Positions 140 through 21,618 of a stretch of 40,199 nucleotides of DNA are shown here, one piece after another. The DNA comes from Candidatus Woesearchaeota archaeon (lineage in GTDB: Archaea > Nanobdellota > Nanobdellia > Woesearchaeales > GW2011-AR9): contig JAGVZN010000024.1 of the NCBI GenBank assembly GCA_018302605.1, forward strand, positions 1 through 40,199, in the 5' to 3' direction. The notes under the pieces are model-generated. The model worked only from the letters and a program-made list of their open reading frames with translations, was not told where the DNA came from and did no database searches. How positions within the stretch are numbered: position 1 is the first letter of the stretch; every line of letters starts with the position of its first letter. Made by a program: the position numbers and the translations under genes.

Positions 140-889
140 ATGGCTTCTTTAAAAAGAAAGTGTGAACCAATTTCGGAATTGAACACTAAATACGTACATA
201 AAAAGCTTTTTAAAAGAAAGAAGAATAGGTCTTCTATGGAACCGCAGCTGAGAAAAGCGATCAAGAAAGCATGGAAATACTTCTGGAATAATGATTCCAT
301 CGGCAGCTGGCTGTTGAACATTATCGTTGCTTTCCTGCTCATCCGTTATATTATCTATCCCGTCCTGGGAATTGTGCTGGGAACCAGTTTCCCCATCGTC
401 GCCGTGGTCAGTGAAAGCATGGAACACAGCACGTTCAATGGCGTGATCTGCGGCAAGACTATTCCGGAATACAAGGAATCATTCGATAATTACTGGCAGG
501 CCTGCGGCAATTGGTATGAACAGCAGGGTATCTCCAAAGAACAGTTTGGAACGTTTCCCTTCCGCGATGGATTCGATAAGGGAGATGTCGTCATTTTGTG
601 GAAAGCACATCAAGATAATCTGGATGTCGGCGATGTTCTTGTCTTTCAGGCAAAACGACCGCAGCCGATCATCCATCGGGTAGTTGCCGTGCGGGAAGAG
701 GAGGGAGAGATCTGGTATCAGACGAAAGGCGACCACAACAGCGACAGCATTGAATCAGTTTTGGGGGAGTTAAAGATCGATCCTGACCGGATCGAAGGGA
801 AAGGACTGATTCGTATTCCATATTTAGGTTGGCTGAAGATTCTGTTCGTGGAAGCACTAAAGCCGTTTGGGATTATTATTGAGAGATGA
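140..889 (+). CDS. Signal peptidase I, archaeal/ER type (S26B)
   Basis: Membrane-bound serine protease that removes signal peptides from secreted preproteins. One hydrophobic segment (about SWLLNIIVAFLLIRYIIYPVLG) is followed by the catalytic-serine motif VVSESMEHS, then GDVLVFQ, IIHRVVAV and the TKGDHNSDS box typical of S26 peptidases. In the S26B type the general base is a histidine (IHRV) rather than lysine. The ORF track starts at a GTG at 35; I prefer ATG 140 because GGTGAG lies 3-9 nt before it. A further in-frame ATG at 236 would still keep the membrane segment. Its likely clients here are the secreted proteins and lipoproteins at 8315, 25056 and 39844, although lipoproteins may use another peptidase. 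Confidence 0.88.
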   Translation: MASLKRKCEPISELNTKYVHKKLFKRKKNRSSMEPQLRKAIKKAWKYFWNNDSIGSWLLNIIVAFLLIRYIIYPVLGIVLGTSFPIVAVVSESMEHSTFNGVICGKTIPEYKESFDNYWQACGNWYEQQGISKEQFGTFPFRDGFDKGDVVILWKAHQDNLDVGDVLVFQAKRPQPIIHRVVAVREEEGEIWYQTKGDHNSDSIESVLGELKIDPDRIEGKGLIRIPYLGWLKILFVEALKPFGIIIER

Positions 890-915: not shown

Positions 916-1002
916 TCACTCTCTTCTCATCCCCCATTTTCTCCATAATAGTAAAAATTCTTCTTTTTCTTCCAATAGAGGCAGTTCGTCAATAGTGGTC
1001 AT
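916..1002 (-). CDS. Vestigial fourth cistron of the MTTIDxLP kinase-like array (28 aa)
   Basis: Too short for the ORF track. The frame opens with MTTIDELP, matching the first residues of the three upstream kinase-fold genes, and its ATG overlaps the stop codon of the preceding gene as ATGA, exactly as at the other junctions. After about 20 more residues (acidic, then WRKWGMRRE) it stops. It has none of the kinase motifs, so it is either a remnant of a fourth paralogue or a short peptide made by translational coupling. Recognition rests on the shared N-terminus and the shared coupling geometry. Confidence 0.5.
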   Translation of the reverse strand: MTTIDELPLLEEKEEFLLLWRKWGMRRE

Positions 1003-1622
1003 TCGTTGCCTCTCCAGAAATTTCTTATTCTCGCCAGAAATCCAGGTGTTGATTTTAGTTTTTTAAATTTCTCCTCCTCCGCACGCATCCATCGTTTTAA
1101 ATTTTCATGCTTCCATCCGCCAAAATCATGAAGATAGACTTTGATGTCCTTTTCTGTGGGGACATATAATACATTATGATCAATGGAAGAATCTTTTATT
1201 TCAAATCCTGCCCGTGCAGCTTTTGCTGTTTCCTCGTGAAATTTGTCTCTGACAGAAAGACGCTCAGAATATTCCAGATCACGATACGAAACTCCTGTGA
1301 TCAATTCCATCAGAAAAGCCGGAACAAGGTGTTCATTCTCGAATAGACGAAGAGCAAAAACGCCCTCCGGCTTGGGGACGGAAACACCTGCCTGATAAAG
1401 CCTGTCTGCTATAGTTGCTTCCCGCAGGGCGTACTGGACGGTTCGGGGAGACCAAAGTTCAGCTTCTACTAAATTAGCTACATCATCCCAATGCCTCCTC
1501 CGATATACTTTCGCCGCTAGATTCTGTTCTGGAATACGGTAAACACTGCTTTCTGTACAAACTTTCAGCGGTTTCGGTTCAATTACGCCAGTAAACACCG
1601 GTAATTGATCGATAGTGGTCAT
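999..1622 (-). CDS. Small kinase-fold protein, third of three tandem paralogues
   Basis: About 207 residues, resembling a reduced Bud32/RIO-like kinase fold. It begins MTTIDQLPVF, then has a glycine-loop-like stretch (ESSVYRIP), an AAKVYRRR segment with the candidate ATP-binding lysine, a possible helix-C glutamate in REATIADRLYQAGVSVPKPEG, a hinge-like FLMELITG, a degenerate catalytic loop (KDSSIDHNVLY) and a DFG-type motif (LHDFGGW). The ORF track adds ten residues; the start at 1622 is preferred because all paralogues begin there, AGGGTG lies just upstream, and the ATG overlaps the previous stop as ATGA. The catalytic loop lacks HRD, so activity is uncertain and the substrate is unknown. 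Confidence 0.6.
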   Translation of the reverse strand: MTTIDQLPVFTGVIEPKPLKVCTESSVYRIPEQNLAAKVYRRRHWDDVANLVEAELWSPRTVQYALREATIADRLYQAGVSVPKPEGVFALRLFENEHLVPAFLMELITGVSYRDLEYSERLSVRDKFHEETAKAARAGFEIKDSSIDHNVLYVPTEKDIKVYLHDFGGWKHENLKRWMRAEEEKFKKLKSTPGFLARIRNFWRGNE

Positions 1623-2134
1623 CGAGACACCCTGGTTTGTCTTCTGTCCCATTGTCCAAAATCAAACATGATCACTCTCTTTTCCTCTAGTCGATAGAGA
1701 CAGTTTTTTGAGGGCTTTTGATCATCCGGGACAAAACCAAGTTCCCAAACCTTGTCTAATTCCAAAGCATGAAGTTGGCGCGCTGTTGCTTGTTCTGAAG
1801 CTGATAATTGCTCATAGTTCTTACCTTTGACGTGTTCCATCACCAAAGCCGGAACGCAGTGATAGATTGGCAGGGTAAGAGCAAAAACACCTTCCGGTCT
1901 TGGAACAGAGATGCCTGCGCTATAGAGTTCAACAACAACTTGATATTCATCATTTAAAAGTAAGATGTGCTCTGGACGAAAAACATACGCCGAATCATAC
2001 CAAGCTTTCAGAAATTTCGCTGCTAATCCTCGTTCTTGATTAATTGCGTAGACTGTCCCAAATTGACCATTACCGATGAAGTGAGCGTTGGAATCTACAT
2101 CCGTAAATACTGGCAATTGATCAATAGTCGTCAT
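1619..2134 (-). CDS. Small kinase-fold protein, second of three tandem paralogues
   Basis: About 171 residues starting MTTIDQLPVFTD. A clear glycine-rich loop (GNGQFGTVYAI) and AAKFLKAW give the nucleotide-binding lobe; LYSAGISVPRPEGVFAL and ALVMEHVKG are shared with its neighbours; the C-terminal part has PSKNCLYR and MFDFGQWD in place of the catalytic loop and DFG. The track start at 2188 would overlap the upstream gene by 58 nt; the start at 2134 gives the same ATGA junction seen at the other borders. The family looks like an atypical kinase, but no substrate can be named and a regulatory pseudokinase is an alternative. Confidence 0.6.
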   Translation of the reverse strand: MTTIDQLPVFTDVDSNAHFIGNGQFGTVYAINQERGLAAKFLKAWYDSAYVFRPEHILLLNDEYQVVVELYSAGISVPRPEGVFALTLPIYHCVPALVMEHVKGKNYEQLSASEQATARQLHALELDKVWELGFVPDDQKPSKNCLYRLEEKRVIMFDFGQWDRRQTRVSR

Positions 2135-2679
2135 TCTGCCGGCCCCCAGCAGGCGTTCAACCGTTCTTCTAATTGAGGATGTTCCCAACCGCCAAAGTCT
2201 ATGAGACAGACGTTTATCTCGTTTCCTTCCATCCGATACAGCCTATTGAATAACACGTCCTTTAGTTCAAAGCCTGCAAGTCGTGCTTTTTCTAATTCAG
2301 CTTTACGAAGCGCATCGGCTTCTTCGAATGGTGGCACCAACCCCTCTACAAATTCCATCACAAACGCGGGAAGATGCGGGGGAATAAGTGATCCTTTTTG
2401 GGGGTCGTGTAAAGCGAATATTCCTTTCGGCTGGGGGACAGAGATTCCCGCTTCCCGAAGCATCTCAGCAACCATTGCTTCCCGCTGGACGTAACGGATC
2501 GTTTGTGGTGAATAGAGTTCTTCACCGCCCAAAATTTCTTTATCCGTCCACAACCTTCTCCAAAACGTCTTGGCAACGATACCGCCCTGCTGATGGCGGA
2601 ACACGGTGCTTTCTCCCCCTTTATTATAAAGAGAGAACCCATTCCAGTCCAGTACCGGCAATTGGTCAATAGTCGTCAT
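2131..2679 (-). CDS. Small kinase-fold protein, first of three tandem paralogues
   Basis: 182 residues and the first gene of the array, with its own TATA box. Visible motifs in order: MTTIDQLP N-terminus, GGESTVFRHQQGG loop, IVAKTFWRR with the candidate ATP-binding lysine, QREAMVAEMLREAGISVPQP, FVMEFVEG hinge, KDVLFNRLYR catalytic-loop equivalent and CLIDFGGWE. The order matches Bud32/RIO-like kinases, but the protein is short and HRD is absent. The three genes differ strongly in sequence yet keep the same N-terminal decapeptide, which suggests that segment is under selection. Confidence 0.62.
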   Translation of the reverse strand: MTTIDQLPVLDWNGFSLYNKGGESTVFRHQQGGIVAKTFWRRLWTDKEILGGEELYSPQTIRYVQREAMVAEMLREAGISVPQPKGIFALHDPQKGSLIPPHLPAFVMEFVEGLVPPFEEADALRKAELEKARLAGFELKDVLFNRLYRMEGNEINVCLIDFGGWEHPQLEERLNACWGPAE

Positions 2680-2817: not shown

Positions 2818-3132
2818 ATGTTTTGTCCAAAATGCGGCTCCATCCTGCGCCCGAAAGATAAAAGCGGTAAAAAAGTTCTCTATTGCAGCTGCGGCTTTAC
2901 CAAGAACCTTGCCGGAGAAGAAACAGCCCAGATCAAAGAGACGGTTACCGGTGCAAAGAAGATCGAGGTGATGGAAACTCTGGAAGTTCATCCCAAAGTC
3001 AAGATTCTCTGCGAAAAGTGTAGCAACAAGATAGCCTACTATTGGACACAGCAGACACGCGGTGCAGATGAACCAGAAACTCGTTTCTTTAAATGCACGA
3101 AATGCAACCATACCTGGCGGGAGTATTCCTAG
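2818..3132 (+). CDS. tfs: Transcription elongation factor TFS (TFIIS/RpoM-like)
   Basis: Archaeal TFIIS homologue of the usual length (104 aa). It enters the secondary channel of RNA polymerase and stimulates transcript cleavage in backtracked complexes. The N-terminal zinc ribbon has CPKC at residues 3-6 and CSC near 23-25. The C-terminal ribbon has CEKC (65-68) and CTKC (93-96), and between them lies RGADEPETRFF with the acidic pair D84-E85 that acts in cleavage. One N-ribbon ligand spacing (CSCG) is shorter than the usual CxxC. The next gene begins 1 nt after the stop codon, so the two are probably co-transcribed. Confidence 0.93.
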   Translation: MFCPKCGSILRPKDKSGKKVLYCSCGFTKNLAGEETAQIKETVTGAKKIEVMETLEVHPKVKILCEKCSNKIAYYWTQQTRGADEPETRFFKCTKCNHTWREYS

Positions 3133-3133
3133 G

Positions 3134-3646
3134 ATGGATACACCGCAGCAATTACTCAACCTGCTGCAGAAAGAGATGCTCTTCCAAAATTGGCAGAAAC
3201 AGCATGGAAAAGGCTACCTTACCCATTTCTTCTGTCCTATTTCGGCACAAGGAGAATTAAAATCAGCCTGGGAGATCGGTTACTTTACTCCGTCATCGCA
3301 AAAGATGACCATTTTTGTCCAGCTTCCACAGAATGGCTTTGAAATAAAACCGGAAGATGATGTTTTCAAAAAACCTGATGCCACCATTGAGGCATTAGAA
3401 ATGAATAACGTAGCAGTATCGTACGAAGCGGTATTGAAACTATTTCTAGAAAAAGCACCCACTGAATTTCCCAAAGAAATCCTAGGTGATGGATTTATTA
3501 TTATTCAGACCTTGCAGAAAAAAACAGTGTGGAATTTTACATTTGTGACAAAAGCATTAAAATTTGTCAATTTGAAGATCAATGCTAAAGATGGAAAAAT
3601 TGCGGATAAACAAATTGTTGAACTTGTTGATAAAAGCGGAAAGTAA
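3134..3646 (+). CDS. Hypothetical protein downstream of tfs
   Basis: About 170 residues with no family I recognise. The ORF track start at 3062 lies inside tfs; the ATG at 3134, directly after the tfs stop and preceded by GGGAG, is more likely. There is no signal peptide or membrane segment. The composition is mixed alpha/beta with hydrophobic strands (MTIFVQLPQNGF, GFIIIQTLQ, VWNFTFVTKALKFVNLKI), suggesting a soluble globular protein. The tight junction argues for translational coupling with TFS, but a link in function is only inference. Confidence 0.7.
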   Translation: MDTPQQLLNLLQKEMLFQNWQKQHGKGYLTHFFCPISAQGELKSAWEIGYFTPSSQKMTIFVQLPQNGFEIKPEDDVFKKPDATIEALEMNNVAVSYEAVLKLFLEKAPTEFPKEILGDGFIIIQTLQKKTVWNFTFVTKALKFVNLKINAKDGKIADKQIVELVDKSGK

Positions 3647-6814: not shown

Positions 6815-6854
6815 ATTCTTGACTTCCAACGTAGGATATTCAATTACCATAATC

Positions 6855-6864
6855 ATTTTAAACC
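6855..6864 (+). promoter_or_regulatory. TATA box of the kinase-dCMP deaminase gene
   Basis: ATTTTAAACC centred about 26 nt before ATG 6885. This spacing implies a leaderless mRNA and supports the start at 6885 over the ORF-track start at 6819. Confidence 0.5.
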
Positions 6865-6884
6865 AATCCACTCCAAAGTACTCC

Positions 6885-7892
6885 ATGATCATCGGAGTTA
6901 CGGGTTTAAATGGCGCGGGCAAAGATGCCGTCGCCGCGCTGCTGAAAGCGATGAACTTCTATCACGTTTCTTTCTCGGATCTCCTCCGAAAAGAATTAGA
7001 ACAACGAAAACAAAAAATTACGCGCGATGCCCTGATCAAGATCGGCAACGAACTCCGCGAGAAAGATGGGGCAGATGTTCTGGCCAGAAAAGCGTTGGAA
7101 ACTGTGAAAGATGGAGAGAATTATGTTTTTACTTCGATCCGTAATCCGCAAGAGGTACGCCTGCTCCAACATCGAAAAGATTTTCTCTTGATCAATGTCG
7201 TCGCGCCGGAAAAAATGCGTTTACAGCGGCTCACCGAAAGAAATCGTGAAAATGATCCAACAACGCTGGCAGAATTACGCAAAAAAGAGAACGAAGAAAA
7301 GAGCGGTAATCCGCATGCCCAGCAACTGCATACCGTCGCCAAAATGGCCAAAATAACACTTGTTAATGATCGCACGATTGAGAAATTGCAAGAGAAAATT
7401 GAGAGATTAGTGAGTGATTATCTCTACAAACTGCATGAAACCCGCCCCGATTGGGATCACTATTTCATGAACATTGCCGAGCAAGTTAAATTACGAGCAA
7501 CCTGCCTTTCGGCACGCAAAGGCGCGCTGATTGTCCGGGATAAAATGATCATCTCTACCGGCTACAATGGCACGCCAAAAGGAATCGGCCATTGCGTTGA
7601 TGGCGGCTGCCGGCGCTGCACGGCTCGTCATTTGGGGAAATTTAAATCCGGATCCTATCCCGAACCATGTACTTGCTGTCATTCTGAAGAGAATGCGATT
7701 GCCCAGGCAGCGTATAATGGTGTCTCCACCCGAGATTCGATCATTTATACAACGTTTACTCCTTGTGTCAATTGCGCCAAGATGATTATTAACGCTGGAA
7801 TTAAAGAAGTAGTCTGTAAAGTGGTGTATCCTGATGACGAAGGGACAAAGCTGTTGGAGAAAGCGGGAGTGAAGTTGCGGGTTTTGGGGTGA
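6885..7892 (+). CDS. Fusion of a P-loop (deoxynucleotide kinase-like) domain and dCMP deaminase
   Basis: 335 residues from ATG 6885. Residues 1 to about 175 form a nucleotide-kinase-like domain with P-loop GLNGAGKD, VSFSDLLRKEL and the FTSIRNPQEV strand. The rest is a zinc dCMP/cytidine deaminase: ARKGALIVRDKMIISTGYNGTPKG, then an extra Cys-rich insert (CVDGGCRRC...CTCCH), catalytic SEEN following the zinc ligand, and TPCVNCAKMI with the other two zinc ligands. It would convert dCMP to dUMP, feeding the ThyX-like enzyme and dTMP kinase encoded divergently. The architecture resembles yeast DCD1, whose N-terminal domain, as I remember it, has a broken P-loop; here it looks intact. Confidence 0.88.
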   Translation: MIIGVTGLNGAGKDAVAALLKAMNFYHVSFSDLLRKELEQRKQKITRDALIKIGNELREKDGADVLARKALETVKDGENYVFTSIRNPQEVRLLQHRKDFLLINVVAPEKMRLQRLTERNRENDPTTLAELRKKENEEKSGNPHAQQLHTVAKMAKITLVNDRTIEKLQEKIERLVSDYLYKLHETRPDWDHYFMNIAEQVKLRATCLSARKGALIVRDKMIISTGYNGTPKGIGHCVDGGCRRCTARHLGKFKSGSYPEPCTCCHSEENAIAQAAYNGVSTRDSIIYTTFTPCVNCAKMIINAGIKEVVCKVVYPDDEGTKLLEKAGVKLRVLG

Positions 7893-14541: not shown

Positions 14542-15684
14542 CTAACGCATTTTTGTCACTAAGCCCGGCAGGCCTGTTCCCAAAGGGACCGGCTGATTGA
14601 TCATGACATTCTCAACAACAGATGTTAAGTAATCAATCTCCCCTTCCAAAGCCGCATTGATGATATGCTTGATCGGTGTTTCAAATGATGCCCGAGCCAA
14701 GACGCTGGCTTTCTCGCTCACGACACCGTAGCGTGTAATCCCTTTCATCAAGCCGCTGACACACATGATATCAGCGACGAGCATGATATGGCGGATATCG
14801 ATGTTTAATCCCTGCTCTTCAATAACCCTAAAGACTTCTCTGATGATCAAAGAACGCGCCGCTTCCACACCTAACACCGCCAACGTTTCGTGAACATCGT
14901 TGCAAAATGTTCTGGTGCCATCAACTTCGGCTAGATCTAAGACATCTTTAAGATTTGACCCCGACGTCAAGATGATATACTCCTCGTCACGCTTGACCGG
15001 GAGAACCTGCTTGATCCCTTTTAGACCGCGCACTTTGACGAGGCGGATCTTTTCTTTAAGATTATACAGGGCTTTGATCTCTTCCGGCTTGCCTTTCTGG
15101 ATGAGCGTGATGCTTCCCGCCGTATTCTCGACAACAAAGCCTTTTAGCTTCGTCTTCATCAACTTGATCAGATCAGCAGTGGAAAGGCCATAATCGGCCA
15201 ACAATGCCGAATTGAATGTAATCGCCAAACACTGGTTAAAGATGTCCAGTGCGTATTCTGAAACGAGGTCTCCTAACAGCGTCTCTTTGATCTTCGTCGC
15301 AAATTTCTTGACCTGTTCCAGCTGGTTGTGGGGTGATTTGAGATAGATCTCCATCATCGGTGTCTTGATCTCTTTTCGTGCATCAAAGATCTCAATGATC
15401 CGCGGCAGACCGGTCGTAACGTTCATTTCCGCAACACCCGCAAGGTGGAATGTATTCAGAGTCATCTGCGTTCCCGGTTCGCCGATACTCTCGGCACTGA
15501 CCAATCCAACACATTCCCCAGCGTTCACCCTGGCTTTTTGATACGTTTCGACAACACGATCACAGATCTTGATCAGTTTATCTTTTGCTATCCCCGCAGG
15601 GAGAGAAGCAGCTATTTCTTGGATGAGAGCTGGAGGCAGACGATCTTCGTATTCTTTCATCGTATCTTCAGAGAGCTTGCTCAT
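14542..15684 (-). CDS. rpoA2: DNA-directed RNA polymerase subunit Rpo1C (A'')
   Basis: C-terminal part of the largest polymerase subunit (380 aa). [49 protein letters not shown] is the trigger-loop and bridge-helix-adjacent region, and the protein ends with the conserved [20 protein letters not shown]...GLPGL segment. Its start codon overlaps the rpoA' stop by 4 nt (ATGA), which would help keep the two halves of subunit 1 in equal amounts. Confidence 0.95.
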
Positions 15685-18254
15685 TCTATCCCCTCCATTA
15701 CCTGTTCGACGATTTTCTTCACGTCGATGGTGCCGTTTTTTGTTTTGGAAACATCAAGACCATCCTCTCCGTAAGAAAACTGAACAATCTTACCGCTGGC
15801 ATCGCGGACTGTTCCGTCGTATTCCACTTTTAAGTCCTGCATGGCATTGGAAAGCCGGCGATAAAGATACCCCGATTTGGGAGTACGCAAGGCAGTATCC
15901 ATCAGCGCATCTCTTCCGGTCATTGCCCCAAAGAAGAATTCGTGAGGCAGCAATCCTGTCTTGAAATTGCTGCGGATAAAACCACGTGCTTTGGGCGAGA
16001 CATCTTTACGTTTAAAGTAAGGCAATGTCCTCTCGTGGTAACCTTTTTCGATGCGTTTCCCGCGCAGCGCCTGCTGTCCGACGATAGCCGTCATCTGCGC
16101 AATTTGTAAGGGGTTTCCCCGTGCTCCACTGCGCGCCATGACTAATGCGGAGCTATCTCGCACCTGTTTCATAGCGATGTCACCGCTCTTGTTCCTCGCC
16201 CGGTTCAACGCTTCCAGGATACGTACTTCTAATGTCTCCGTAGCCGTTCTTCCCGGCAGTGATTCCAATTCCCCCGCATAAAATGAGTCAATCAATTTTA
16301 GAGCATCTTCTTCCGCTTTGTCGATGACCAAGCGAATTTCCTCTTTCGTCTCTTTGCTCAGATCCATGTCTCCCACGCCGATGGAAAATCCCCGGCGAGC
16401 AAGGACCGTAATGCCCAGCTTGGAAATTTTACCAAGTACATCCGCAGTAAAAGATGGGCCATACTTCTCAAAGATATTACGCAGCATCAGACCGCTTTCT
16501 TGCCCAAGGTTGGCTTTGTCCATAAACCCCGCTTTCAGCTGCCCATTGACGATGCGCACTTCATTCCCCCCTTTATCCTTGCCGACAAAATTGAAATCGG
16601 CAGGGAGGAGGACGGAAAAGACTTCTTTCCCATCGATCTTTTCTTTGTGCGGAAGACGCGAAAGGTCATCGGCTCCGCACGTGAAGAGCAAGTCAGCCGC
16701 TTCCGGAAACGATAAGATCAATTCTTTGGTCAGGAGATAGTTGCCCGTGATCGCATCATGGATACAACCAACAACACTCAGTCCGTAGCGCGGGCTGATG
16801 ATCTGTGTTTCGACCAGCATCAGGATTTTTGCCTCAGCCCGTGCTTCTTCTGTCTGCGGGATGTGCAGATTCATCTCATCGCCGTCAAAATCAGCGTTGT
16901 AGGGGTTGCAGACGGCAGGATTAAGCCGGAATGTTTTTCCGGGAAGTACTTTGATCTTGTGGCACATCATGCTCATCCGGTGCAGGGAAGGCTGCCGGTT
17001 GAATAGAGCAATATCTCCATCGATCAGATGACGCTCGATAATATATCCCACTTCCAATTCCAGAAGAATTTCCTCTTTGGTTTCTGAAGTGATCGTCTTC
17101 CGCTTTCCATCGGGCTTGAGGATATAATTCGCCCCCGGATATATCTTTGAGCCATTCTCGACAAACGCGCGCAGAAATTCTTTATTCCACTCCGTGATCC
17201 GTTCCGGAATCGTCAACGTCATGGCCATGCTCTGCGGAACGCCAACTTCATTTAATTCGATCAGTGGATCCGGGCTGATGACCGTCCTCGCCGAGAAATC
17301 CGTACGCTTTCCGGCAAGATTATGGCGGATGCGCCCTTCCTTGCTGCCGATTCTGTTTGCCAATGTCTTGAGAACCTGACCACCGCGATGGCGGGCGGGA
17401 GGAAGCTGCGGGATGCTATTATCAAAATACGTTGCCACATGATACTGAAGGAGGTCCCAGAGATCTTCGATAATCACTTCCGGCGCCCCAGCGTTGATAT
17501 TTTCAAAGAGACGTTGGTTGATCCGAACAATATCTCCTAACTTGTGGGTCAGATCATCTTCACTTCGCTCACCAGATTCCAGCGTAATGCTCGGCCGCAT
17601 AGTCACAGGGGGGATGGAAAGGACAGTCAAGACAAGCCATTCCGGCCGGAATCCTTCCATGAAACCAAAAACAAACAGATCTTCCGCGGGAATCTTCTCC
17701 AGACGGGCGCGGAGTTCGATTGAGCTTAATCTTGTTTCACCTTCGTAGAAATTATAAGGTTTTTCAATCTTGATCTTTTCCTGTTTTGCATCGCAATGCG
17801 GGCATTTGTCTTTTACTTTATAGCGAGCGACGATCCCTTTGATCTGCTGGCGGCGGGCTTCAAACCCTTCTTCTTCCCCGACTTGAGAGAGCAGGGCGAG
17901 ATAGCGTTTGATATTGACGTCGGGGATGAGAATCCGGCAACAGGCACGGCAGGTTGATTTTAAGAGATCTAAAATCTGCCGGACAAATTTGACATGGATG
18001 ACCGGCCGGGCAAGCTCAATGTAGCCAAAGTGACCAAGCGTGTCTTTCAATTTCAGGCCGTCCGTCTTACAGACGAGACCCGGATCAATAACGCCCAACC
18101 GCGTATCCATCAAACCGCCATCGACGGGATAGCCTTCTTTATCGTAAAGCTCAGGGGTGACAATTTTTGCTGCCGACATATTCCTGATCGTCGCTGGCGG
18201 CAAAATCCCAAAGTGGATTGCTTTGATTTTTTTGGAAACGATTGGCGTTTTCAT
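15681..18254 (-). CDS. rpoA1: DNA-directed RNA polymerase subunit Rpo1N (A')
   Basis: N-terminal part of the largest polymerase subunit (857 aa, near the usual 870-900). [18 protein letters not shown] is the catalytic motif whose aspartates hold the active-site Mg2+. The N-terminal clamp zinc site usually reads CxxC...CxGHFG, but here it reads [16 protein letters not shown], so two cysteines are missing. A second zinc site (TCRACCRI ... KCPHC) looks complete. The catalytic features argue that the enzyme is active. Confidence 0.95.
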
Positions 18255-18323
18255 GGTTTATCTCCGTGATTAGTTCACGATATTGGTGTTTATGATAATG
18301 TTGTTTACTTGTTGGTTGCGTGT

Positions 18324-20126
18324 TTAGTATTTATTTTCCAATTCCAGTTGAGGGTAGATACCCAGTGACAATAACTCATCCATCAGCAGCTTAAAGGCAT
18401 AACTCATCTCTACGTAGGACAACTGTGAGTCTTCTCCGAAGACCGGGGAGATCAACTTATTGGAACGGGCATCAAAGTAGCCCAGCAAACCAGATTTCAC
18501 ACAAACGGGAACCGTAACCCGGTCAGAATCAAACCGCTCTTTTAAGAGCAGCGAAGCACCATGGGCGATCAAAGTATCTTTCTCCATCTCTCCCAGACGT
18601 AATCCGCCCTCTTTTGCTTTCCCTTCCGTAGGCTGCCGGGTAAGCAGCTGGATCGGACCACGCGCCCGAGATTGCATCTTGTTTCCGACCATGTGGCGCA
18701 GGCGGAGATAGTACATATTACCAACGTAGATGCGCGCAAGCATCTGCTTGCCTGTTCTTCCGTCGTAAAATACTTCCGTACCATCGTCACGAAAACCTAA
18801 CCCCTGCAATTCCTGACGCAATGATTCTTCGGTTTCAGCCTCAAATAAAGTACCATCGACAAAACGACCGTTAAGCGCTCCCACTTTTCCTCCGACAATC
18901 TCGATCAGATGAGAGATGGTCATCCGCGAAGAGATACCATGCGGGGTAAAGATCAGATCGGGAACGATTCCTGAAACGGAAAACGGCACATCCTGCGGCG
19001 GAACTAATATTCCCGTGACTCCTTTCTGACCATGCCGGGAAGTGAATTTGTCTCCGATCTCTGGGATGCGTTCTTCACGCAGGCGCACCTGGACCAGCCG
19101 GTTTCCCTCTTCATTTTCGGTAATGATCACGAGATCAGCAACGCCGTGCTCACCATGTTTCAAAATAACGGAACTTTCCCGGCGGGTGGCTGCTGAAAGA
19201 TTATATTCATCTAATCCACTGAGGAAGCGCGGAGGACTTGTCCGACCGATGATCACATCCCCTTCCTGTACTTTTGCTTCAGGAGAGACGATCCCATCGC
19301 CTTCCAGATGGCGGTAATCGTGCTCCGTTCGGTAGCCTTTGACATCTTTATCCGGAACACTGATCTCATCAACGAGACCGCCGGAATAACGCAGCTCTTC
19401 AATTCCCATCGGGCGAAGATAGGTACTGCGGGCCAGACCGCGCTCTACGGAACCTTTATTGAGGATAACACCATCCTCCATGTTATAACCATCGTAACAC
19501 ATCACGGCGACAACCATATTTTGACCCGACGGATGTTCAGCATAATCAACCACATCATGGATCTTGGTCTTCACCAGGGGCAATTGTGGATAATGAAGAA
19601 TATTCGCATCCATATCCATACGGATGTGATAATTAGAAGCATAAAATCCTAATGCTTGCTTCTGGTTCTTACTTCCGATGATGATTCTGGAAGACGGAGC
19701 ATAATTAGCGAAAGGAACAAGAGCGGTGGTAATCCCGGAGATCACGCCGGAACTGATTTCCGCGTGCGTATGTTCTAGTGTAAGATCTGCTTCATCGTAG
19801 GCAATAAGCGCATTTTCCTCTTCGGCCGCATCTAAATATTCGATCACTCCTTGCCGAATAAGGTCGTGCCAGCTTAATTCACCCTGAGCAAGCTGCTGCA
19901 GCTGCTTTTCCGTCAGTAGTGATTTGCCGTCGCGGACAACGATCAAAGGGCGGCGGGCGCGGCCTTCATCAGTGAACAGATGGACTTCTTTCGCTCGATC
20001 GTCGGCAAAGATATTAACATCCTCGGAAAGAGAGCCCTTGCGGCGCAGATCTTTAACATCTTCAACGAAAGCCTGTATATTTTCCACTACTCCGAGATAA
20101 CGTGAATTAAGATAGACGTCTGCCAT
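18324..20126 (-). CDS. rpoB1: DNA-directed RNA polymerase subunit Rpo2C (B')
   Basis: C-terminal part of the second-largest subunit (600 aa). It includes IIGSKNQKQALGFYASNYHIRMDMDANILHYPQLPLV, YDGYNMEDGVILNKGSVERGL, IPEIGDKFTSRHGQKGVTG and GLRLGEMEKDTLIAHGAS, all core catalytic and clamp segments. The C-terminal zinc ribbon is eroded: where relatives have CxxC...CxxC this protein has CVKSG and SPVFGE, keeping one cysteine of four. It starts 1 nt after rpoB'' ends. The split B''/B' arrangement is archaeal. Confidence 0.95.
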   Translation of the reverse strand: MADVYLNSRYLGVVENIQAFVEDVKDLRRKGSLSEDVNIFADDRAKEVHLFTDEGRARRPLIVVRDGKSLLTEKQLQQLAQGELSWHDLIRQGVIEYLDAAEEENALIAYDEADLTLEHTHAEISSGVISGITTALVPFANYAPSSRIIIGSKNQKQALGFYASNYHIRMDMDANILHYPQLPLVKTKIHDVVDYAEHPSGQNMVVAVMCYDGYNMEDGVILNKGSVERGLARSTYLRPMGIEELRYSGGLVDEISVPDKDVKGYRTEHDYRHLEGDGIVSPEAKVQEGDVIIGRTSPPRFLSGLDEYNLSAATRRESSVILKHGEHGVADLVIITENEEGNRLVQVRLREERIPEIGDKFTSRHGQKGVTGILVPPQDVPFSVSGIVPDLIFTPHGISSRMTISHLIEIVGGKVGALNGRFVDGTLFEAETEESLRQELQGLGFRDDGTEVFYDGRTGKQMLARIYVGNMYYLRLRHMVGNKMQSRARGPIQLLTRQPTEGKAKEGGLRLGEMEKDTLIAHGASLLLKERFDSDRVTVPVCVKSGLLGYFDARSNKLISPVFGEDSQLSYVEMSYAFKLLMDELLSLGIYPQLELENKY

Positions 20127-20127
20127 T

Positions 20128-21618
20128 TTAAAGTGCTTCTTTCAAGCCGACCCCCTTCAATTTATCAATAACATCTGCGTCTTCCACACGCTGGGACAAA
20201 GAACAGAGCATCGCTAAGTTCTTACGCAGCCCAATGTTTGTCCCTTCGGGAGTTTCGATCGGGCACAATCTTCCGAGGTGGGTGCAATGAAGCGCACGGG
20301 CTTCAAAGTTCTCCTGAGAGTTAGAGAGAGGACTGGCCACGCGCTGCAGATGCGAAATCATATCAAGGAAATTCGTTCTGCTCATGCGCTGAGAAACACC
20401 TTGTCTTCCACCGACCCATTCACCCGTCGCCATAGATGAGTACAGGCGGGAAGTCAGAAGCTTGTCACGGATGATCACGCGGATAGAAGGCAATTTGCCC
20501 CGCTTGATGATCCTTTGGAAGTTATAGAGGATGTCCCCAACGAGGACTTTAAAATTGACCCGGAAAAGATCGAGCAAAAGATCACCGCTCATCCGCACGC
20601 GCTTATTCATGTAATGGTCCTTGTCATCCGGCTCACGCACACCGCGCTGGACATCGATATATTTCTTGAGCATCTTTGCGATATTGCGCCCTTTCACCAG
20701 ACGATCCTGCGTCTCCAGACCGATGTTCGGGAGCAGATATTTGTCCAGGATCTCTTTCGTCCGTTCCACGCGAATCTCTTTTGCCTGGCCGACACCAACC
20801 CGCTTGGCGATAAAATCGATGGCATCATCCTGCGTCTTGAGGTCCACGAATTCGTAGAGGTTCAAGAGCAGTTCTTCGTAAGTTTCATCAAGAGAAACTG
20901 CTTTCATGATCTCTTCATCTTTAACCAAGCCCAACGCTTTGAGGACAACAACTAACGGCATCTGTTTGACCCGCGTGAAAGTGAGATAATAGAGGCCATC
21001 TTTCTTGCGCTCAAAAGTATGGGGAATCTTATACGATCCCCGCGCAGCAAAGAACCGGCCGGAACAAGAACCATCGGAACTTCGATCAACCATGAAATTA
21101 TTCGCGGCCAAATCCTCGATATTGACAATCACGCGTTCTGTTCCGTTGATGATGAAGTAGCCGCCGGGATCACTCGAATCTTCGCCATGCTTGATCAATT
21201 CTTCTTTATTGATCTTACTGAGATGACAGAATTTACTTTTTAACATGATCGGCATCTTTCCGATTTCAGCGACAAAATTCTCTCGTTGAACATCGTTGAT
21301 GTAGGTGCTGACTTCTAAGAAGATCGGGGCGTGGTAGGAAATCTTCCGCAGACGAGCCTCGACGGGATAGATCGGCCGCTTACTTCCGTCAGCCTCCGTT
21401 ATTTCCGGCTTGCCTACGGTGATTCGGCCAAAGCGAATTTTAAATTTTTCAATATTGTGAGGAATGATCGTTGGCTCTGCCTCTTTATTTTCTTCAATGA
21501 CTTCTTGCAGCCCTTTTTCGATAAAATGATTAAACGACTGAATGTTGCTCTCGACAAATTTCTTTTCTTCAAAGTATTTTCGGATCAGGATTGATCGATC
21601 TTGTTTTTGGTTATCCAT
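20128..21618 (-). CDS. rpoB2: DNA-directed RNA polymerase subunit Rpo2N (B'')
   Basis: N-terminal part of the second-largest subunit (496 aa): protrusion, lobe and fork. Signatures are FEIKFGRITVG-like KIRFGRITVGKPEITEADGS, PIMLKSKFCHL, DPGGYFIINGTERVIVNIEDLAANNF and SRTNFLDMISHLQRVASPLS...ARALHCTHLGRLCPIETPEGTNIGLRKNLAMLC. The start overlaps the end of rpoH by 8 nt. Everything expected is present, ending just before the natural split point. Confidence 0.95.
   Translation of the reverse strand: MDNQKQDRSILIRKYFEEKKFVESNIQSFNHFIEKGLQEVIEENKEAEPTIIPHNIEKFKIRFGRITVGKPEITEADGSKRPIYPVEARLRKISYHAPIFLEVSTYINDVQRENFVAEIGKMPIMLKSKFCHLSKINKEELIKHGEDSSDPGGYFIINGTERVIVNIEDLAANNFMVDRSSDGSCSGRFFAARGSYKIPHTFERKKDGLYYLTFTRVKQMPLVVVLKALGLVKDEEIMKAVSLDETYEELLLNLYEFVDLKTQDDAIDFIAKRVGVGQAKEIRVERTKEILDKYLLPNIGLETQDRLVKGRNIAKMLKKYIDVQRGVREPDDKDHYMNKRVRMSGDLLLDLFRVNFKVLVGDILYNFQRIIKRGKLPSIRVIIRDKLLTSRLYSSMATGEWVGGRQGVSQRMSRTNFLDMISHLQRVASPLSNSQENFEARALHCTHLGRLCPIETPEGTNIGLRKNLAMLCSLSQRVEDADVIDKLKGVGLKEAL

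Follow-up and report, generated by a model that had tools for sequence, protein, structure and literature searches.

A tandem array of minimal kinase-fold genes with a shared N-terminal tag in a Candidatus Woesearchaeota genome

Three small, diverged kinase-fold genes and a short stub with the same N-terminal tag lie in tandem on a contig of a Candidatus Woesearchaeota archaeon (genome of 1.16 Mb in 32 contigs). The window, that is, the whole stretch of DNA analyzed here, is this entire contig of 40,199 bases. It is fairly probable that the array arose by tandem expansion of a small, uncurated DPANN kinase-fold family from the Bud32/RIO part of the kinase superfamily, with the mode of action proposed below. 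The family forms a small, new branch within a known superfamily and combines, in an unusual way, minimal size, a catalytic loop without His, a fixed N-terminal cap and tandem turnover; literature searches of partial coverage found no description of this kinase family.

The array is encoded on the minus strand. The first gene, w1 (2131-2679), encodes a minimal kinase-fold protein of 182 amino acid residues, and w2 (1619-2134) encodes one of 171 residues that retains the GxGxFG loop. The third, w3 (999-1622), was identified by a match to the family profile and encodes a kinase-fold protein of 207 residues with a longer basic C-terminal tail. The last, w4 (916-1002), is a 28-codon stub beginning MTTIDELP; short-word blastn against the other copies found nothing convincing beyond its start, and no kinase body is recognisable past the tag. 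The tag reads MTTIDQLPV in w1 (2653-2679), w2 (2108-2134) and w3 (1596-1622), and MTTIDELPL in w4 (976-1002). The open reading frames and their translations agree with a preliminary description of this DNA, which had noted three genes and a 28-codon remnant starting with MTTID(Q/E)LP, and the coordinates bear out its statement that every junction is an ATGA overlap, since w1 and w2, w2 and w3, and w3 and w4 are each joined by a 4-nt stop/start overlap. Upstream starts would lengthen the w2 and w3 frames, and the ATGA starts were preferred because they yield the common tag. Overlaps of 4 nt were found in 4 of 28 co-directional gene pairs taken from a hand-chosen list for the window, three of them in the array and one at rpoA2/rpoA1. 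The ATGA overlap fits co-translation, yet it is an ordinary arrangement and by itself proves nothing.

The array is flanked on one side by a gene for a signal-peptidase-like membrane protein (215-889, plus strand), which was named by eye from its sequence, had no Pfam match at 0.001 and is syntenic in both genus relatives with 72-74% identity. On the other side, divergent from the array, lies a gene for a TFIIS-type zinc-ribbon (TFS-like) protein (2818-3132, plus strand; PF01096, E 3.6e-18), whose identity in the genus relatives is 83-88%. It is adjoined by a gene for a 170-aa protein (3134-3646, plus strand) that is likewise syntenic, with 85% identity in one of these relatives (G002) and no Pfam match at 0.001. 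Elsewhere in the window, one open reading frame (6819-7892, plus strand) combines a P-loop nucleotide-kinase-like domain (AAA_17/AAA_18) with a dCMP deaminase domain, apparently a fusion of two nucleotide-metabolism enzymes. Within 14542-21618 (minus strand), two frames encode the B subunit of RNA polymerase (Rpb2 domains 4-7 and 1-3), and two more, joined by an ATGA overlap, encode the A subunit (rpoA2/rpoA1).

The kinase fold claimed in the preliminary description was supported by profile comparison and by structure prediction. Single sequences matched the Pfam and NCBIfam kinase families weakly. When the family profile was compared with a profile of eleven archaeal Bud32 proteins, a match of 98.8% (E 4e-17) was obtained, in which the HGDLTTSN loop lines up with the catalytic Asp and Asn; against PDB sequences, the family profile matched RIO2 (3e-8) and CK2 (2e-6). 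AlphaFold2 models were predicted with a pLDDT of 91.5 and a pTM of 0.88 for w1, and of 91.1 and 0.87 for w2. The best solved matches of the two models were Rio2 and Rio1 of A. fulgidus, as found by Foldseek (Rio2/Rio1 at E 2.8e-6 for w1; A. fulgidus Rio2 at E 1.1e-6 for w2), with moderate TM-scores of 0.50-0.62. The family has the kinase fold with the β3 Lys, αC Glu, catalytic Asp, Asn and DFG Asp that characterize the superfamily. Against the curated models, w2 scored 13.6 bits for TIGR03724 (Bud32; cut-off 125), 12.9 bits for PF01163 (RIO; cut-off 22) and 14.1 bits for PF01636 (APH; cut-off 23.2), and the HGDLTTSN catalytic loop of Bud32 is absent from the family; the true Bud32 of the genome scored 185.8 bits with TIGR03724. 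Given that the genome carries its own normal Bud32 and RIO genes, the array is additional to the standard kinases. On these profile matches and predicted structures, the family is assigned to the Bud32/RIO part of the protein-kinase-like superfamily, where it is without a curated model.

Bud32 and RIO are universal kinases, and Bud32, the kinase/ATPase of KEOPS (TIGR03724), is represented in eukaryotes by PRPK. The array family shares with Bud32 a small kinase fold, the same N-lobe, the VPxP and ME..G core, the catalytic Asp and Asn, and DFG, whereas the HGDLTTSN loop, the DFGLS...EDKAVD segment and the RGRxK tail are missing and the scores lie far under the Bud32 cut-off. The atypical kinases RIO1 and RIO2 are the best solved relatives by both sequence profile and fold, and the variable insert between β3 and αC that is known from Rio and KdoK (PMC1821047) is also present in the array family; the latter is, however, shorter, lacks the HGDxSxxN loop, falls under the Pfam RIO1 cut-off and is separate from the RIO gene of the genome. 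HopBF1, a minimal kinase of 175 aa (PMC9950578), is similar in size and was matched by w1 in Foldseek (E 3.6e-5, TMt 0.55), but it is bacterial and only 12% identical; the likeness is one of fold and size only. KdoK/WaaP kinases and APH phosphotransferases belong to the same protein-kinase-like superfamily and gave weak matches; they differ in their catalytic loop and in their larger C-terminal part, and the array family falls under their cut-offs.

In an alignment of 38 members, in which mean column identity was about 20%, the β3 Lys was found in 37, the αC Glu in 32, the catalytic Asp in 35, the Asn in 36 and the DFG Asp in 37; Trp followed DFG in 35, and the first Pro of VPxPxG was present in 34. 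In w3, the conserved Lys is K38 and the conserved Asp is D144. The P-loop lysine and DFG do remain, as had been noted earlier. The catalytic loop, which had been called degenerate in all copies, has lost the HRD His/Arg in the window copies, and the His is not conserved in the family; the catalytic Asp and Asn are nevertheless kept, and both are present in all three window copies, where they are 4 to 7 residues apart instead of 5. The domain ends about 3-40 residues past DFGxW, so that most of the C-lobe is absent. Ten key kinase residues (G52, K72, E91, P104, H158, H164, D166, N171, D184 and D220) were listed by Kannan et al. (PMC1821047), who report that all but one of them can be dispensed with in some family. 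Mapped by alignment rather than by superposition, 7 of the 10 are kept in most members of the present family, and there is no conserved counterpart of H164, D220 and, apparently, H158. Judged from these residues, the catalytic loop appears altered rather than dead.

An ATP-using enzyme is likelier than a pseudokinase on this sequence evidence, because 35-37 of the 38 members retain the Lys, catalytic Asp, Asn and DFG Asp, although such retention is no proof of catalysis. The Asp-Asn spacing, which varies in the window copies, leaves some probability to the pseudokinase reading. In that reading, the copies bind ATP or nothing and serve as scaffolds or allosteric partners, and phosphotransfer was abandoned when the HRD His and the remainder of the C-lobe were lost. 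The variable spacing is in keeping with it, as are the loss of the HRD His/Arg in all copies and the absence of most of the C-lobe; pure scaffolding, however, is not expected to preserve all four catalytic residues in 92-97% of relatives that are otherwise so diverged, and we regard the pseudokinase reading as unlikely. Still less probable is that the proteins are small-molecule phosphotransferases of the APH type, with tandem copies modifying different metabolites. The weak Pfam match common to most members is APH (11 of 32 members, best 3.4e-5), and a fast-changing body would suit shifting small-molecule targets. In APH-type enzymes, however, a large C-terminal part serves the substrate, and this part is missing here; both the profile and the structure comparisons favor Bud32/RIO.

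The tag is conserved at the level of the peptide. Codons 2-9 are invariant in residue across w1, w2 and w3, compared with 18% invariant columns in the body alignment (hypergeometric 2.7e-6), and 24 of 24 residue comparisons were identical in the tag versus 37% in the body, counts that are small and non-independent. Pairwise body identity is 36-40%, and the longest invariant run outside the tag is 3. Synonymous sites are near saturation at this protein identity, and codon identity among identical residues was therefore used in place of dN/dS. Different codons were found in 12 of the 24 same-residue comparisons of the tag; codon identity was nearly equal in tag (0.50) and body (0.49), and the six sites that vary among the w1-w3 tags were all third positions. 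The amino acids, not the DNA, have thus been kept, in line with the earlier suggestion that the peptide itself is conserved although codons differ. A DNA pattern for the tag had exactly four matches in the 1.16-Mb genome, all at the array starts; the reversed control pattern had none, and the same scan found the tag on no other gene of the genome. In the w1 and w2 models, residues 1-10 were predicted with a pLDDT of 94-95 and form a helical turn at positions 4-6 followed by a strand, in which Thr3-x-x-Gln/Glu/Asp6 reads as a helix N-cap.

Since the models place the tag within the folded domain and it is also found in single-copy, unlinked relatives, it need not be an address of the array. The search for tag-like N-termini in other genomes that had been suggested earlier did find such relatives, in other lineages, with N-termini of the LPx(F/Y) type (QLPVY, ELPVY, ELPLY and RLPDF). 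With w1 and w3 dropped, an N-terminal LPx[FYLP] occurred in 7 of 38 sequences, whereas 2,000 shuffles gave an expectation of 0.25 and never more than 3, the pattern having been picked after the sequences had been viewed. The tag is probably an ancestral folded element of the N-terminus, strictly preserved here in a lineage-specific form, and not an array-specific address. The earlier proposal that it directs the proteins to one partner or place is accordingly not upheld: a docking peptide that takes all copies to one place could be combined with the main explanation of the body, and conservation of the peptide in three such diverged paralogues and its near-conservation in the stub speak for it, yet its predicted place in the fold, its occurrence in single-copy relatives of other lineages and its absence from every other gene of the genome make this function rather doubtful. 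The likeness of the tags might also be a by-product of recent gene conversion or of RNA-level selection on the translation start region, given that the tag lies at the start codon and adjoins the ATGA overlap. Equal codon identity in tag and body and the confinement of all six changes to third positions make such a by-product highly improbable, and gene conversion as the origin of the tag was rejected on the codon test.

The close syntenic relatives are groundwater genomes of Candidatus Woesearchaeota. At the same syntenic place, the sister species (G002) has one copy, beginning MKTIDDLP, and the other genome (G001) has two ATGA-coupled copies, beginning MTKYPYLP and MTHYPSLP. In the phylogenetic tree, the three window genes w1-w3 cluster with the G002 gene in a supported clade, and a second clade holds the G001 pair; the duplication in the window lineage therefore predates the split from G002, and copies have since been lost or gained. 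Identity to G002 is 36-42% for the kinases versus 74-88% for the flanking genes, a gap that mixes fast evolution with paralogy because the duplication is old. The tree and these identities support the earlier view of a diversifying array, as far as turnover is concerned. An independent ATGA-coupled tandem was found in a Pacearchaeote (L047), in which the second copy, beginning MTKIELPVPKF, ends after the β3 Lys by a deletion into a methyltransferase gene, a fate resembling that of w4. In G001 (locus L044), a gene for a 291-aa metalloprotease-like membrane protein, named by eye, lies between the second kinase and the signal-peptidase-like gene and is absent in the other two genomes.

The distribution of the family is sporadic: about 5-7% of the genomes in Woesearchaeota, Pacearchaeota and related groups carry it. 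In the order, 38 of 353 genomes matched the first wide profile at E ≤ 0.001, with Bud32 and ABC1-type kinases in the weak tail, and inspection left the family proper in about 16 genomes (5%). In the phylum, 61 of 371 genomes matched at 1e-6, the tail once more including Bud32; with a border set by eye, the family proper was found in about 26 genomes (7%). When 84,980 species genomes were scanned with a narrow pattern from a 7-row alignment, eight loci were obtained, each of them in Woesearchaeota, Pacearchaeota or unplaced Nanoarchaeota; wider occurrence is possible. When the neighborhoods of relatives were compared, nothing recurred outside the genus, so that the neighborhood gives no pointer to the substrate. 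One member with an ELPLY N-terminus (L010, 1513-2184, in G033) is broken by stops and is a pseudogene, and in a Woesearchaeote (L050, 5815-7585, the same region as L020) two opposite-strand members flank one unrelated gene. No relatives were found in viral contigs (searched with w3 and a genus-level alignment) or in phages and plasmids (searched with w2), and PHROG gave one weak match; a viral or plasmid origin was rejected. Membership in a defense system was also rejected, as the PADLOC kinase matches were weak (best 8.4e-5 among all members, to PD-T4-6) and were read as generic kinase similarity.

In the proposed mechanism, ATP-metal would bind in each protein between the complete N-lobe and the reduced C-lobe, and phosphate would pass to a protein or small target in the manner of RIO and Bud32, which manage without an activation segment. 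The tag would be a folded N-terminal cap (a helical turn with Thr-x-x-Gln/Glu, followed by Leu-Pro and a strand) on which the fold depends; it may also dock one partner, while the bodies would diverge in target preference. Through the ATGA overlaps, translation of the copies would be linked and they would be produced jointly. Tandem duplication would add copies and deletion would remove them, with stubs such as w4 as remnants. A further-reaching version, in which these are fast-diversifying minimal kinases specific to DPANN, with a fixed folded cap docking a common partner, bodies changing under conflict with a host, competitor or virus, ATGA-coupled tandem birth and death as tag-bearing stubs, is conceivable and at present quite unlikely.

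With this array, the Bud32/RIO part of the kinase superfamily gains an uncurated branch. Its proteins come close to the minimum size of a kinase domain, and they occur in archaea whose very small genomes nonetheless keep several diverged copies. Which catalytic residues a kinase can do without, how much of the C-lobe is expendable, and what an invariant N-terminal cap does can all be tested on this natural example.
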